NCBI GenBank assembly: GCA_021740745.1
Contig: JAIOZF010000025.1
Location: forward strand, 1 to 36,595
Direction of reading: 5' to 3'
From: Crocinitomicaceae bacterium
GTDB taxonomy: Bacteria > Bacteroidota > Bacteroidia > Flavobacteriales_D > Crocinitomicaceae
DNA: 36,595 nt
Under the pieces are notes generated by a model that did not search any database, was not told the origin of the DNA, and saw only the letters and a list, made by a program, of their open reading frames with translations. Made by a program: the position numbers and the translations under genes. Below are positions 31,220-36,595 of the stretch, piece after piece; positions within the stretch are counted from its first letter, which is position 1, and each line of letters opens with the position of its first letter.

Positions 31220-31609
31220 ATGAAAAAAGGAACCAAGATTTATAGTATTCTGAACAAAAAATGTCCGCAATGTCATGAGGGAGATTTTTTTGTTTCAAGT
31301 ATTTACGTTTTTAAATACATGGGAGATGTAAAAGAAAATTGCCCTCATTGTGGACTGAAATATTCAAAGGAACCGGGCTTTTTCTATGGTGCTATGTATG
31401 TAGCTTATGCATTGGGAGTTGCCACTTTCGTTACGTTATGGGTTTCTTTTAATTTATTTTTTGACAATGTTTCGATTGGATGGCAAATTGGTAGTATCGT
31501 CACTTCAATTATTATTTTGAGTCCCGCAATCTATGCTTATTCAAAAATAATTTGGTCAAACATGTTTGTGAAGTATAAGCATAATGCTAAACCTAAAGTG
31601 ATTAGTTGA
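31220..31609 (+). CDS. DUF983 membrane protein with zinc-ribbon-like cysteines
   Basis: A 129-residue protein of the DUF983 family. The N-terminal half has two Cys pairs (KKCPQCHEGDFF near 13-24 and NCPHCGLKYSKEPGFFYGAM near 40-59) that could bind zinc. Two membrane helices follow (about 59-83 and 93-115). DUF983 genes occur next to aa3 oxidase genes in some alpha-proteobacteria, but the function is not established. Here it stands as a single gene behind a well-formed Fnr-type promoter, which points to a respiratory or low-oxygen role. Confidence 0.85.
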   Translation: MKKGTKIYSILNKKCPQCHEGDFFVSSIYVFKYMGDVKENCPHCGLKYSKEPGFFYGAMYVAYALGVATFVTLWVSFNLFFDNVSIGWQIGSIVTSIIILSPAIYAYSKIIWSNMFVKYKHNAKPKVIS

Positions 31610-31675
31610 TTTTTAATACACATCTGATTGTTGTTTAATTTTTAGTTTATTAAATGTACAATGTTTTAATAATTG

Positions 31676-31683
31676 TATATTTG
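31676..31683 (+). promoter_or_regulatory. Possible -7 promoter element
   Basis: TATATTTG matches TAnnTTTG exactly, 30 bases before the ATG of the secreted protein at 31713. I see no clear -33 TTG at normal spacing. Confidence 0.4.
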
Positions 31684-31712
31684 TTTATCTATTAACATAT
31701 AATTTATATACT

Positions 31713-32549
31713 ATGAAAAAACTTTTACTTTCTGTTGGGGTTATTTTAACTTCACTTACTGCAACTTCACAATTGTTTAACGCTTCAAGTGCTGCAGATT
31801 TCGCAACTTTTGCTGCAGTTGATGCTGATGGCGATACATTTAGTTGGGGTATTTACGATTTATTGACAGCGAATGCAGGTGCTCCAGTAGGAACTTCGTT
31901 TGATGCTCAAGGTGACGTTTTGGGATCTTTTTCTTACGACAACGCAACCATGGCTGCATTAACGCCAGATAACTGGATCGTTTCTCCAGCAATTAATTTA
32001 ACAGGACAAACAGTAGCAACTCTATCTTGGGGACGTGCTTCAGTAGATCCTAATTATCCTGCAGAAAACTATTCAGTTTATGTAGTTTCTGCTGCTGATC
32101 CAACGACTGTTGTAGCTGCATTAACTGCTGCAACTCCAGTTTTCACTGAAACAATTGCAACTGCTGATGTTTGGGAGTCTAAATTTGTAAATATCAATAC
32201 GTTTGCTGGCCAAAACAATGTGTATGTTGCCTTTAGACACCACGCATGTACTGATGAGTTTTTATTCATTTTGGATGATATTAAAATTACTAACGTGGCT
32301 TCAATTGTTGAAAGTACAATTACAACTTCAGCATACCCGAATCCAGCAAGTGATGAATTGAACATTAAATTGAGTGCAAATGCAACCTCAGTTTCAATCA
32401 TTGGTTTAGATGGAAAAGTAATTTCTACTGAGTCAGTTAATTCAAATGCTGTTACAGTTAATGTTTCTGCTTTAGTTGCAGGTGTTTATTTGTACGAAGT
32501 AGTTGCTGAAAACGGTGAAGTAGTTCGTAATACTTTCGTTAAGAAATAA
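31713..32549 (+). CDS. Secreted choice-of-anchor/cleaved-adhesin-type protein with T9SS sorting domain
   Basis: A 278-residue protein with a signal peptide (MKKLLLSVGVILTSLTATSQ). A jelly-roll-like domain of the choice-of-anchor J/cleaved adhesin type follows (about 25-195). Signature phrases are DNWIVSPAINLTGQTVATLS, VYVAFRHHACTDEFLFILDD and IKITN. A type A T9SS sorting domain (about 205-278, ending AGVYLYEVVAENG) completes it. Such domains mediate adhesion or carbohydrate binding in related proteins; the ligand here is unknown. It is flanked by its own -7 element and a strong terminator, so it is transcribed alone. Confidence 0.85.
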   Translation: MKKLLLSVGVILTSLTATSQLFNASSAADFATFAAVDADGDTFSWGIYDLLTANAGAPVGTSFDAQGDVLGSFSYDNATMAALTPDNWIVSPAINLTGQTVATLSWGRASVDPNYPAENYSVYVVSAADPTTVVAALTAATPVFTETIATADVWESKFVNINTFAGQNNVYVAFRHHACTDEFLFILDDIKITNVASIVESTITTSAYPNPASDELNIKLSANATSVSIIGLDGKVISTESVNSNAVTVNVSALVAGVYLYEVVAENGEVVRNTFVKK

Positions 32550-32568
32550 TTTCATTTTTTTAGAAAAG

Positions 32569-32596
32569 AAGGGATCAGAAATGGTCCCTTTTTTTT
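32569..32596 (+). terminator. Rho-independent terminator of the secreted adhesin-like gene
   Basis: GGGATCA (32571-32577) pairs with TGGTCCC (32582-32588), with one G-T wobble, around a GAAA loop, followed by eight T. It lies 22 bases after the stop at 32549. Confidence 0.9.
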
Positions 32597-32657
32597 ATGT
32601 TCTTTTTTTAATATTGTATATTTACAACCTATTCATTATTGCACTTTATAATCTAAT

Positions 32658-33218
32658 ATGAAGGAAATTTTATTAGTTACGGGTCTGCCAAGATCAGGTA
32701 CCTCGTTGATGATGCAAATTCTTGATAAAGCTGGGATTGAAGTATTATCTGATGGAAAAAGAGAATCTGATATTAGTAATCCAGAAGGTTACTATGAGTT
32801 AGAGGCAGTCAAAAAAATTGTTACCAATAATTCTTTTTTAAAGGAGGCAGTAGGAAAGGCCGTAAAAATTGTTGCACCCTTACCGTTGTTTATCGATCAA
32901 ACATTATCGTATAAGGTGATTTTCATGAAACGTTCCATAGATGAAGTGTTAAAATCACAAGAAATTATGCTTAACAAGGATCAACAATCTGAAAGAGAAA
33001 AATTTGCAACTATTTTTTCAAGTCATATAGATAAAACACAGCGATTTTTCACGGATAAAAAAATACCATTCATAGAAATGAATTATGCACAGTTAATTCA
33101 AAATCCGGAGGAAGAAATAGCTCGCCTAGTTGATTTTTTAGAAATAGATGCAAATAAAGAATTGATGCTGAGCGCTATTAAACCTGAACTTTATCGAAAT
33201 AGAAATGAGTCAAAATAA
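32658..33218 (+). CDS. Small sulfotransferase-like P-loop protein
   Basis: A 186-residue cytoplasmic protein with the fold of PAPS-dependent sulfotransferases. The N-terminal phosphate loop is VTGLPRSGTSLMMQ (G9-S16), matching the 5'-PSB motif. The 3'-phosphate motif is recognisable as MKRSIDEVLKSQE, with Arg and Ser in the usual spacing, and it ends with a YAQLIQNPEEEIARLVDFL segment typical of these proteins. It is short for the family (usually 250 or more), so the acceptor-binding part is reduced. The same domain forms the C-terminus of the protein two genes downstream. Its end overlaps the next gene by 14 bases. Sulfate transfer is inferred; another nucleotide-dependent role is possible. 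Confidence 0.8.
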   Translation: MKEILLVTGLPRSGTSLMMQILDKAGIEVLSDGKRESDISNPEGYYELEAVKKIVTNNSFLKEAVGKAVKIVAPLPLFIDQTLSYKVIFMKRSIDEVLKSQEIMLNKDQQSEREKFATIFSSHIDKTQRFFTDKKIPFIEMNYAQLIQNPEEEIARLVDFLEIDANKELMLSAIKPELYRNRNESK

Positions 33219-33369
33219 AAATAGAATAGTTGAGATTGGTCCACAAGGATCATTAGCAGTTTTGGCGCTAGGCTCAGTAGGCTTGAAAAAATGGCGTGAA
33301 GCTGTTCGTGAAGCCCAAGAAAAAGAAGCTAAATCAAAGAAAAAAGATGGCGAAGAAACTGGCAAATAA
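33205..33369 (+). CDS. 54-residue protein nested between two overlapping genes
   Basis: An ATG-to-TAA open frame of 54 codons that starts 14 bases before the end of the sulfotransferase-like gene and ends 23 bases inside the next gene. The protein has a glycine-rich apolar stretch (GPQGSLAVLALGSVGLKKW, about 13-31) and then a highly charged helix (REAVREAQEKEAKSKKKDG). It could be a small membrane-associated or scaffold peptide. Without it there would be a 128-base unexplained gap in an otherwise overlapping operon. I do not recognise a family. Confidence 0.65.
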   Translation: MSQNKNRIVEIGPQGSLAVLALGSVGLKKWREAVREAQEKEAKSKKKDGEETGK

Positions 33370-35965
33370 GATTTTAGTCATCGGGTGGGATGCTGCAGAA
33401 TGGTCAATAATTGAACCTTTATTGCAACAAGGTAAAATGCCTGCTTTGCAACGTTTAATGAGTGAGGGAGTTTATGGTCGTTTAAAAACATTAGATCCAC
33501 CTTTGTCTCCAATGTTATGGACTAGCATTGCTACGGGTTTAAGAGCTGATAAGCATGGTGTTTGCGGTTTTGTGGAACCCATTCCAACAGGTGAAGGTTT
33601 GCGCCCAGTAACTTCAACTTCTCGCAAGGTGAAGGCAATTTGGAACATGTTTACACAAGAAAATTTAAAATCTAACGTGGTGGCTTGGTGGCCAAGTAAT
33701 CCTGTTGAACAAATAAATGGTGTCATGGTTTCCAATTTATATCAAGTAGCAACGAAAGCTGCTCGAGAAGATTGGAAAATGCCAGATGGTACAATTCACC
33801 CCAAAGAAAAGGAAGAAGAAATGATGGAGTTTCGTGTGCATCCGCACGAAATTACCTTGAATATGGTGGCTCCATTTGTGCCGAATATAGTTGAAGATAT
33901 TGAACTCAGAAAGGATAAACGAGTTGCTAGTGTTATCAAAATAATTGCGAATGCAGCATCCGTTCATGCAGCTTCAACTCATTTAATGGAAAAAACAGAA
34001 TGGGATTTTATGGCTGTTTATCATGATGCTATTGATCACTTCTGTCACACCGCAATGCGCTATCACCCGCCTTTGCGAAAACACATCGATGAAAAGGAAT
34101 TTGATAACTTTCAACATGTTGTGGAGGCAGGTTATCAATTTCATGACATGATGCTGGAGCGAACCTTAGAATTGATTGATGACCAAACAACCGTTATTTT
34201 ACTTTCTGATCATGGATTCTATTCAGATCATCGAAGACCTTTACAAATACCAAAAGAACCTTCTGGTCCCGCGGCAGAGCATAGTCCGTATGGCGTAATT
34301 GTAATGAAAGGACCTGGAATTAAAAATACGGGAGAAGAAATAACGGGTGCATCTGTAATTGATATTACACCAACAATTCTTGCGCTTTCCGGCTTGCCGA
34401 TTGGAAATGATATGGAAGGTAAGGCCCTTACTTACGCTTTTAGCGAAGATATTCAACCTGAATTTATTCCAAGTTGGGAGAACAGAGAAGGGTTCAGTGG
34501 TATGCATGATAAAAATGTAGTCGAAGACCCTTGGGCGGCCCAAGAAGCATTGCAACAATTAGTGGAATTGGGTTATATCGAAGCAATGGATGACAATAAA
34601 CTTGAACAGGTCGCCAAAGCAAAATTGGAAAGTGATTATTATGTTGCTCGAAATATGATTGATGGCGGTCGTTTAAAAGAAGCTATTCCCATTTTCGAGC
34701 GAATATTTGCTGAATCATCTGTTATCCGATATGGCCAGCGTATGGCTTTCGCTTATTTAAGTTTAAAACGCTATGATAAAGTCGCGGAAATCATTGCTCG
34801 ATTAAAAGAAATTGAAAAAGCAGATTTAGAGGATCTTAAAAAGAAAGCACAAGAAAAAAATCCTAAGGATCCATTTTTGAATAAGGAATTTGAAGAGCCT
34901 AACTATTTAGATTTCATTGAAGGATTGATGTTACTTGCATTGAACAAGCCAGGTAAAGCGCTTCCATTGTTAGAAAAAGTACAGCAAAAAAATCCAAATA
35001 GTCTAGATGTAGCCTTGAATATTGCTAAAATTCATAAGTTAAGAAAGAGCTATTCGAAAGCTGAAAAGCAATATATAAAAGCACTCGCAATTGATGAACG
35101 CAATGCCGCTGCCCATCATGGTTTAGGAATTTGTTTGCTTCGACAAAACAAATATGATATAGCCATAGATGAATTTTTGTCGGCTTTAGAATCAAATTTT
35201 TACATGCCAAGTGTTCATTATCACTTAGGCGAAGCATTATATAAAGTAGAAGATTTTTCTGAAGCAGCGGAAGCCTTTGAAGTGGCCATTCATTTGGCAC
35301 CGGGAATGACAAAGGCGCATAAATGGTTATTCGAAATTTATACGGATAAATTGAATGATACTGAAAAAGCGTCCAAGCAAAAGGAGTTCTTAGATAATAA
35401 TATCAAAGGTGAAATTGTAGTTGTTACTGGATTGCCTAAAACTGGTTCTTCGTTGATGATGGAAATGTTACAAGTTGGAGGTATGCCAATCTTGGTGGAT
35501 GACACAGAAACTACTGATAAATCGCCGAAGAAAACAATGGAATTTGCCAAGGTCAATTTGATTCAAAAAGATATCTCTTGGATGGTTGATGCGCGTGGTA
35601 AAGCAGTGAAGATGATTGTTCAATTGCTGAATTATTTACCTCCAAACTACAATTACAAGGTAATTCAAATGAACCGTGATATATCTGAATTAATGATGTC
35701 ACAGCAAGTTCACTTAGGAAAGAAAGCGACTCCTGAGACCTTGCCATTAAAATTATTTAATAATTATTTATCTCAGCTCAGCAAACTAAATACGTGGGTT
35801 GAGGCACAACCGAATGTGCAAGTATTGAAGGTGGAGTTTGATGATTTAATTGAAAATCCGATTGAACAAGCGGAGATAATCGCAGATTTTTTAGGAGAAG
35901 AACTTGATTTCAATTCTATGGCAAAGGTTATTAACCCTGAATTAGTTAAAATCAAGAAAAAATAA
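33347..35965 (+). CDS. Alkaline phosphatase-superfamily / TPR / sulfotransferase fusion protein
   Basis: About 872 residues from ATG 33347 (MAKKLANKILVIGWDAAEWS). Residues 8-400 are a type I phosphodiesterase/nucleotide pyrophosphatase domain: metal ligand D15 (IGWDAAEW), probable nucleophile T58 (SPMLWTSIATGLRADKHG), DAIDHFCHTAMRYHP, LLSDHGFYSDH and AAEHSPYGV supply the remaining Asp/His ligands, so the two-metal site looks intact. Residues about 420-680 are helical TPR repeats (AAAHHGLGICLLRQNKYDIA). Residues about 687-872 are a sulfotransferase-like P-loop domain (VTGLPKTGSSLMMEML; VIQMNRDISELMMSQ) homologous to the product at 32658-33218. No signal peptide is seen, so it is cytoplasmic. 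A start at 33296 would deepen the overlap with the 54-aa gene to 74 bases and adds a lysine-rich extension. Substrate unknown. Confidence 0.85.
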   Translation: MAKKLANKILVIGWDAAEWSIIEPLLQQGKMPALQRLMSEGVYGRLKTLDPPLSPMLWTSIATGLRADKHGVCGFVEPIPTGEGLRPVTSTSRKVKAIWNMFTQENLKSNVVAWWPSNPVEQINGVMVSNLYQVATKAAREDWKMPDGTIHPKEKEEEMMEFRVHPHEITLNMVAPFVPNIVEDIELRKDKRVASVIKIIANAASVHAASTHLMEKTEWDFMAVYHDAIDHFCHTAMRYHPPLRKHIDEKEFDNFQHVVEAGYQFHDMMLERTLELIDDQTTVILLSDHGFYSDHRRPLQIPKEPSGPAAEHSPYGVIVMKGPGIKNTGEEITGASVIDITPTILALSGLPIGNDMEGKALTYAFSEDIQPEFIPSWENREGFSGMHDKNVVEDPWAAQEALQQLVELGYIEAMDDNKLEQVAKAKLESDYYVARNMIDGGRLKEAIPIFERIFAESSVIRYGQRMAFAYLSLKRYDKVAEIIARLKEIEKADLEDLKKKAQEKNPKDPFLNKEFEEPNYLDFIEGLMLLALNKPGKALPLLEKVQQKNPNSLDVALNIAKIHKLRKSYSKAEKQYIKALAIDERNAAAHHGLGICLLRQNKYDIAIDEFLSALESNFYMPSVHYHLGEALYKVEDFSEAAEAFEVAIHLAPGMTKAHKWLFEIYTDKLNDTEKASKQKEFLDNNIKGEIVVVTGLPKTGSSLMMEMLQVGGMPILVDDTETTDKSPKKTMEFAKVNLIQKDISWMVDARGKAVKMIVQLLNYLPPNYNYKVIQMNRDISELMMSQQVHLGKKATPETLPLKLFNNYLSQLSKLNTWVEAQPNVQVLKVEFDDLIENPIEQAEIIADFLGEELDFNSMAKVINPELVKIKKK

Positions 35966-36019
35966 TTTTTTTTATTTTAAAAAGAAACAATAAATTAGCG
36001 CAACCAAATCATTTTCTAT

Positions 36020-36595
36020 ATGAGTAAAAATACTACTAAAACAGAAAGAAATTCAAAGTTAGCAAAGTATTCAGCAGTTGCTGGAGCAGTTATTGCTTCA
36101 AGTGCTGTAAACGCACAAGTTCAATATACAGATGTTAACCCTGATGTTGTCATTGATAAAAATACGGCTCCATACCAATTAGATTTTAATGCAGATGCTA
36201 CAGTTGACTTGACATTTGCTGTAACTTCCGCACAAGGTTCTGGAACATATATGTATGGATACGTTCCAATTTCTTATACTTATCAGATCTCTTATGCTGG
36301 TGTTTCAGCTGGAGCAGGTGCACAAGTGATGGGATTTGTTTCTGGAAGTAGTTCAACATTTGCACCTAGTGCTTTAAATTCTGGTGATTTGATTAGTAAC
36401 GCAGGTATATTTGGTTCAGGCGGTGTGCTTGCTGCTGAAGGATTAATAACGGCATCAGCATTAAGTTTTACATATCCTGTCGCGCTAGGTGAGTTCCTTG
36501 GAGCAACAGATAAGTTTTTAGGAGCTAATTTTACAGTTGGACCAAATACTCACTACGGTTGGGTTCGTTTAACCGTTGCAGCTGACGCATCTACA
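36020..36595 (+). CDS. Secreted protein, C-terminus beyond the window (partial)
   Basis: An open frame of 192 codons runs from ATG 36020 to the window edge without a stop. After a basic N-terminal extension (MSKNTTKTERNSKLAKYS) comes a signal sequence (AVAGAVIASSAVNAQ, cleavage near residue 33). The next part has DVNPDVVIDKNTAPYQLDFN, and near the end GANFTVGPNTHYGWVRLTVA. This pattern of an Asp/Asn-rich start plus a HYGWVRL stretch is familiar from secreted Bacteroidota proteins that usually end in a T9SS sorting domain; that end lies outside the window. No enzyme motif is visible. Confidence 0.8.
   Translation, partial: MSKNTTKTERNSKLAKYSAVAGAVIASSAVNAQVQYTDVNPDVVIDKNTAPYQLDFNADATVDLTFAVTSAQGSGTYMYGYVPISYTYQISYAGVSAGAGAQVMGFVSGSSSTFAPSALNSGDLISNAGIFGSGGVLAAEGLITASALSFTYPVALGEFLGATDKFLGANFTVGPNTHYGWVRLTVAADAST

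Follow-up and report, generated by a model that had tools for sequence, protein, structure and literature searches.

Here we describe a conserved gene unit near the end of a 36,595-nucleotide stretch of DNA from a Crocinitomicaceae bacterium (GenBank assembly GCA_021740745.1, contig JAIOZF010000025.1, forward strand), which in its whole length is referred to as the window. Comparison between genomes shows that four adjoining genes form one unit. These genes code for a free sulfotransferase, a protein of 54 amino acids (aa), an enzyme in which a phosphodiesterase domain, tetratricopeptide repeats (TPRs) and a sulfotransferase domain are joined in one chain, and a member of a family of exported proteins that we named YGW after its most conserved stretch. 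With about even confidence, we propose that the unit is a cytosolic modification system that uses 3'-phosphoadenosine 5'-phosphosulfate (PAPS), is dedicated to one surface protein and acts on it before export. A preliminary description of the same DNA had ended the unit with the third gene (32658-35965). The three open reading frames (ORFs) are real and lie where it placed them, with overlaps of 14 bases (33205-33218) and 23 bases (33347-33369), but the conserved unit extends one gene beyond 35965, to the YGW gene from 36020, which had been missed. Its statement that no described system of this layout is known agrees with our literature search, which was confined to open-licence papers and found none.

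The enzyme and its distribution

The enzyme consists of a phosphodiesterase of the nucleotide pyrophosphatase/phosphodiesterase (NPP) and alkaline phosphatase (AlkP) type (residues 1 to about 400), TPRs (about 418-685) and a sulfotransferase domain (689-872), and Pfam searches returned Phosphodiest (3.6e-25), several TPR models and Sulfotransfer_3 (7.7e-9). In an AlphaFold model with a mean predicted local distance difference test (pLDDT) score of 87.6, the first domain was matched by VIA-align with PafA (Z 27.8, root mean square deviation [rmsd] 3.4, 329 residues aligned), ENPP1 (Z 27.5, rmsd 3.1) and Xac NPP (Z 27.1); the fold matches also include ENPP6 and ENPP7. The seven residues of the two-metal site and nucleophile (D15, S54, D230, H234, D288, H289 and H312) are invariant in 30/30 aligned enzymes, and S54 aligns with the threonine of PSFTNP in phosphonoacetate hydrolase, the nucleophile of that enzyme. 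The fold, the two-metal ligands and the nucleophile are all those expected of an NPP-type phosphodiesterase of the AlkP superfamily, and the hydrolase site, already called intact in the preliminary description, is so by comparison. Neither a signal peptide nor a hydrophobic stretch is present in the enzyme (maximum KD19 1.45).

Two peptide patterns were run over 84,980 species genomes and identified 31 further enzyme loci, a lower bound because the patterns were exact, and in 28 of them the phosphodiesterase, TPRs and C-terminal domain form one chain. The enzyme loci span Bacteroidota, Verrucomicrobiota, Planctomycetota, Gammaproteobacteria and a cyanobacterium (Cyanobium). A single-sequence query found the enzyme in at least 2 of 395 Bacteroidota genomes and a profile search in 15 of 120 genomes of the window's own order; among Verrucomicrobiota, the phylum of genome G420, 13 of 241 genomes match, 2 of them in the sulfotransferase part only. 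The enzyme is evidently an old, conserved protein. Two variants of the chain were seen. The fusion at L018:5980-9102 has about 190 additional C-terminal residues with a methyltransferase-like EIGIGEGHL stretch, and at L036:6001-8681, from a lichen PVC-group genome, phosphodiesterase-TPR and sulfotransferase are divided between two overlapping ORFs.

One sulfotransferase site per locus

The preliminary description noted a sulfotransferase domain that occurs once free and once fused. Pfam finds both, but they are not equal twins. The free copy (Sulfotransfer_3, 5.7e-11; Sulfotransfer_1, 1.8e-8) has an intact GLPRSGTS loop as well as the NPxGYxE and R..S motifs; within its family, Sulfotransfer_3 was found in 14/14 members and R92 and S100 are invariant, and a profile of the family reaches SULT1 chains at 2e-5. 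The free copy thus carries the 5'-phosphosulfate binding (5'-PSB) loop and the 3'-phosphate motif of PAPS-dependent sulfotransferases, which the fused copy of the window has only in part. In the latter the loop reads GLPKTGSS, NPxGYxE is gone and 19 of 30 otherwise invariant positions are kept, compared with 2 in the fused domain of L007 and 30 in each of three intact controls from outside the training set.

This erosion follows the presence of the free gene. In the first set of loci, PRSGTS of the fused domain is intact in 24/24 loci without a free gene, whereas the fused P-loop is gone in all loci that have one (L007-L009 and L021). In the set from the window's order, the fused domain is intact in 6/6 loci without a free gene (L140-L142, L144, L153 and L154), and none of the loci with a free gene (L145-L152 and L155) has an intact fused loop. 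The fused domain is entirely missing in genome G691, and in G673 a single free sulfotransferase serves two enzyme copies. Exactly one intact sulfotransferase site was present in every Bacteroidota locus examined. Since presence of a free gene and decay of the fused domain coincide in every locus seen, the activity has moved out of the fusion. As read from these alignments, selection keeps one catalytic sulfotransferase site per locus, which in the window is the free gene. The reading that the window has two active sulfotransferases was rejected, since wherever a free copy exists the fused one has decayed.

The locus in G673 (L162, on contig C6) comprises, in a row, two copies of the enzyme, two of the YGW gene and a single free sulfotransferase; the P-loop is missing from both fused domains, and two 54-aa-type ORFs stand in tandem. 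Elsewhere in the window genome, a further and stronger Sulfotransfer_1 gene (E 3e-36; L001, G000:C32:15572-16324) is positionally unrelated to the unit and could be another PAPS user.

With regard to PAPS supply, adenosine 5'-phosphosulfate (APS) kinase was found in 13/15 enzyme genomes versus 52/105 other genomes of the order (P = 0.006) and, among the genomes listed for the window's family, in 6/7 with the enzyme versus 3/22 without it (P = 0.001). In genome G715, an APS kinase gene (L158:4426-4950) and the enzyme gene are convergent, and the two share 4 bases at the 3' end of the latter. The APS kinase gene of the window genome adjoins genes that read as cysD, cysN and cysQ, the family test having been made on the kinase alone. 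The sulfotransferase of the unit presumably uses PAPS in vivo.

The exported YGW partner and its leader

A YGW protein adjoins the enzyme in nearly all loci of the first set. In Bacteroidota its gene is usually directly downstream of the enzyme and the protein ends in a type IX secretion system (T9SS) domain; in the other phyla the gene is usually upstream and the protein ends in a PEP-CTERM tail. Contig C68 overlaps the end of the window by 51 bases (36545-36595) inside the YGW gene and completes it with a T9SS-type domain, so that the window contig and G000:C68 are probably neighbours in the genome; the T9SS end of the window's own protein is known from the reading of this continuation. The partners classify as T9SS cargo by Por_Secre_tail, found in 11-12 of 24, and a model of the L015 partner matches the C-terminal domain of RemA (Z 10.7, rmsd 1.8, 73 residues aligned). 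For the YGW core, no fitting named Pfam or NCBIfam family was found.

The pairing was also seen in an independent set of Verrucomicrobiota genomes, where 11/14 enzyme loci have a YGW/PEP-CTERM neighbour (10/13 without the training locus) and all three enzyme copies of one genome have a PEP-CTERM partner of their own. Six genomes of this set contain 11-59 PEP-CTERM genes in 1.7-5.9 Mb, so that chance would place such a neighbour beside the enzyme at a few per cent of loci. YGW-like domains, some of them repeated, also occur in metallopeptidase-like proteins of 700-1500 aa in genomes without the enzyme (L047-L066).

In the Bacteroidota partners, a leader motif, [LIM]xxY(S/T)xxA, lies just before or inside the signal peptide, and its tyrosine is invariant in 17/17 aligned proteins (alignment A8). 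A 32-position profile of this leader matched 16/21 enzyme-bearing Bacteroidota genomes, with 1-3 copies each. The copies away from known loci are all on YGW proteins except one weak match (L139), and two of them (L135 and L137) adjoin further enzyme copies. Among 395 Bacteroidota genomes only the window genome matched (0/394 others). The partners in the five leader-negative genomes, Saprospiraceae where titles tell, have longer N-terminal regions, several with LxxY-like stretches, and the YGW-like proteins found in genomes without the enzyme begin, as far as their starts are readable, with ordinary or lipoprotein signals. In the exosortase phyla, the profile, although trained on Bacteroidota only, scored enzyme-linked PEP-CTERM proteins above unlinked ones (21 versus 26 proteins; Mann-Whitney P = 3e-5), a gap that may partly reflect YGW homology.

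The 54-amino-acid protein

The ORF for the 54-aa protein is a real gene, with a homologue in the corresponding position in 16 of 21 Bacteroidota loci. In the order sample the family was found in 12/15 enzyme genomes and in 0/105 others (P = 4e-14). Conserved co-occurrence had been proposed as a check in the preliminary description, and the layout is indeed conserved and functional. The family core reads IPxxGSLGLLALGxxGLxAWRK, with G15, L20, A21, G23 and W30 invariant. Pfam gave nothing above cut-off for the ORF, and no fitting named Pfam or NCBIfam family was found. The hydrophobic stretch is weakly hydrophobic (maximum KD15 0.45-2.0), with D, E, K or H inside it in several members, and a role as membrane anchor is possible but not compelling. 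A sulfated RaxX-like peptide was rejected as the main idea, the core having no invariant Tyr, Ser or Thr.

What the core does resemble is the tail of the enzyme-linked PEP-CTERM proteins. In an unfiltered search of all locus ORFs with the 54-aa family, the next matches after the family itself were enzyme-linked PEP-CTERM tails of other phyla (L032, 3e-5; L022, 4e-5), and in the independent Verrucomicrobiota set the tails of L074 (1e-8), L070 and L071 were found, L070 being the same locus as L032. Scored with the 54-aa profile, linked tails exceeded unlinked ones (23 versus 26 tails; median 10.0 versus -1.5 bits; P = 3e-5), with 11 linked and 0 unlinked tails above 10.1 bits. Comparison therefore shows a similarity between the 54-aa protein and the tails of the linked PEP-CTERM proteins. 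The exosortase family PF09721 has strong matches in most enzyme genomes of the other phyla and no match in the window genome, which is 96% complete; the tail of the 54-aa protein is therefore not an exosortase signal there.

Proposed function and alternatives

In the mechanism that we propose, the free sulfotransferase of the window would use PAPS, the phosphodiesterase domain would hydrolyse or edit an ester of phosphate or sulfate on that same target, or on a group that it carries, and the TPRs would hold this target, most likely the YGW precursor encoded next door or a group carried by it. The precursor would be recognised before export by its LxxYS leader together with the PEP-CTERM-like tail, the latter belonging to the YGW protein itself in phyla with exosortase and forming a distinct adaptor peptide, the 54-aa protein, in Bacteroidota. 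Modification would precede export by Sec and then by T9SS (or exosortase), with Bacteroidota YGW proteins leaving by T9SS, and the hydrolase might serve in editing, recycling or reversal. The target, the order of the steps and the group removed by the hydrolase are what we infer here. Since the tail stands alone as a protein when the partner terminates in a T9SS domain and is absent from enzyme-less genomes, it could be a docking tag for the modifying enzyme, as opposed to an exosortase signal, and be provided as a free adaptor in exosortase-less Bacteroidota. Together with the tyrosine leader, it would then mark a hitherto unknown class of systems that tag surface proteins with sulfo or phospho groups in the cytosol, common to exosortase and T9SS bacteria; this extension is tentative and somewhat unlikely.

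Several observations weigh against the proposal. The 54-aa gene is missing at L007-L009, L023 and L026, the compact leader is absent from the Saprospiraceae partners and several non-Bacteroidota partners, and APS kinase was not found in two of the enzyme genomes. YGW-like domains occur independently of the enzyme in 20/395 genomes, including the window's own, and the genomes compared are mostly metagenome assemblies. Furthermore, the context of the leader tyrosine is not acidic and this residue is probably cleaved off with the signal peptide, so that it may be a docking site only.

Whether a protein is modified at all is questioned by the alternative that the enzyme acts on a cell-surface glycan or lipid and that the YGW protein is a co-expressed carrier, anchor or binder of the sulfated or phosphorylated ligand. 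NPP/AlkP enzymes often use lipids and nucleotides, as illustrated by the matches to ENPP6 and ENPP7, Sulfotransfer_3 members are broad, and the published PEP-CTERM system is tied to exopolysaccharide (PMC1569441). However, the neighbours listed include no conserved glycosyltransferase or lipid gene, and the one-to-one pairing in multi-copy genomes and the leader on the YGW protein point to a protein, which makes this alternative unlikely. A make-and-remove switch, in which the sulfotransferase adds a group and the phosphodiesterase takes the same group off one acceptor, would suit the conservation of both active sites, within one chain at most loci, and the occurrence of sulfatases among AlkP folds. 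It is nevertheless decidedly improbable, as the serine nucleophile in the NPP-like site favours phosphate esters or diesters over sulfate and no regulatory input was seen.

It is possible, though less likely than not, that the likeness of the 54-aa protein to the tails is convergence, in which case the protein would do no more than anchor the enzyme to the membrane or couple its translation. It has a short hydrophobic stretch followed by basic residues, its reading frame overlaps those of its neighbours, and single proteins of this type reach PEP-CTERM models weakly (best E 0.015). Against convergence stand the charged or His residues that interrupt the stretch in several members, the invariance of the G, L, A, G and W positions, and the better fit of the profile to linked than to unlinked tails of the same genomes. 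Finally, the patchy distribution of the enzyme could be taken to mean that the genes travel together without a joint function. Such hitchhiking is hardly credible, since the association holds whether the partner is upstream or downstream, which depends on the phylum, and since distant extra copies (L135 and L137) keep the pairing of enzyme and YGW protein.

Relation to known systems

By analogy, the unit would work most like the RaxST-RaxX pair and the accessory Sec glycoproteins, in which a co-encoded cytosolic enzyme modifies an exported protein. Accessory Sec glycoproteins carry a special leader motif. These serine-rich repeat surface proteins are modified in the cytosol by dedicated co-encoded enzymes (PMC5578698 and PMC7948813); the unit differs in its leader and in that no glycosyltransferase was seen beside it. 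In Xanthomonas, RaxST is a cytosolic tyrosylprotein sulfotransferase of the PAPS type, encoded beside an exported precursor, and the invariant R12, S100 and E47 of the unit's sulfotransferase fit the three essential residue kinds named for RaxST, a conserved Arg, a Ser and a Glu as candidate base (PMC6637879). In contrast to RaxST, the sulfotransferase of the unit is fused to or adjoins a phosphodiesterase with TPRs, and its partner is beta-rich, being a T9SS or PEP-CTERM protein. The neighbours at 31220-36595 include neither a RaxX-like peptide nor a RaxA/RaxB-type peptidase transporter.

With the PEP-CTERM/exosortase system (PMC1569441), the unit shares the partner tail at loci of Verrucomicrobiota, Planctomycetota, Gammaproteobacteria and the cyanobacterium, most of these genomes having an exosortase. 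In the window genome, however, there is no exosortase match, the partner has a T9SS-type end in place of the tail and the tail is a separate ORF; moreover, the gene lists in the accessible part of that report do not include the enzyme. In the window, the unit therefore belongs to neither the PEP-CTERM/exosortase nor the Rax system. NPP and AlkP superfamily phosphodiesterases have the same fold and metal-site residues as the enzyme, which differs in being cytosolic, in its serine nucleophile and in being joined to TPRs and a sulfotransferase.

Sulfation of exported bacterial proteins is nearly unexplored. According to the RaxST paper of 2019, no tyrosine sulfation other than that of RaxX has been documented in bacteria (PMC6637879). 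Should the YGW protein prove to be modified, the unit would represent a widespread dedicated system, spanning five or more phylum-level groups, in which leader and tail together supply a ready-made list of substrates, and the PEP-CTERM-like tail would gain a role apart from exosortase. The function can be tested directly with one enzyme, one peptide and one substrate.

Features of the locus

Gene starts were assigned mechanically (Table 1). For the enzyme, the ATG at 33347 is taken as the start; an alternative upstream in-frame GTG at 33296 was judged less likely.

Table 1. Coordinates of the unit and its parts in the window
Feature	Position	Strand	Basis
Free PAPS-type sulfotransferase, 186 aa	32658..33218	+	Pfam; alignment A9 (30 invariant columns); covaries with loss of the fused copy
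54-aa protein, resembling a stand-alone PEP-CTERM-like tail	33205..33369	+	Conserved core GSLAVLALGSVGLKKWR at about 33247-33297
Enzyme, 872 aa: phosphodiesterase-TPR-sulfotransferase	33347..35965	+	Pfam; AlphaFold model; VIA-align
Fused sulfotransferase domain of the enzyme, eroding	35411..35965	+	GLPKTGSS; NPxGYxE lost; 19/30 invariant residues
Exported YGW protein, N-terminal 192 residues; gene truncated by the contig end, remainder on C68	36020..36595	+	Family adjoins the enzyme across phyla; 51-base contig overlap
Leader motif KLAKYSAVAGA of the YGW protein, invariant Tyr17	36056..36088	+	Alignment A8

An origin of the DNA from a phage or plasmid was considered and rejected, as phage records gave no match and the plasmid matches listed were only phosphodiesterase-domain relatives in haloarchaea. 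Upstream of the unit, a DUF983-type gene is present in three Crocinitomicaceae loci, at 31220-31609 of the window, L008:879-1265 and L009:1163-1543.

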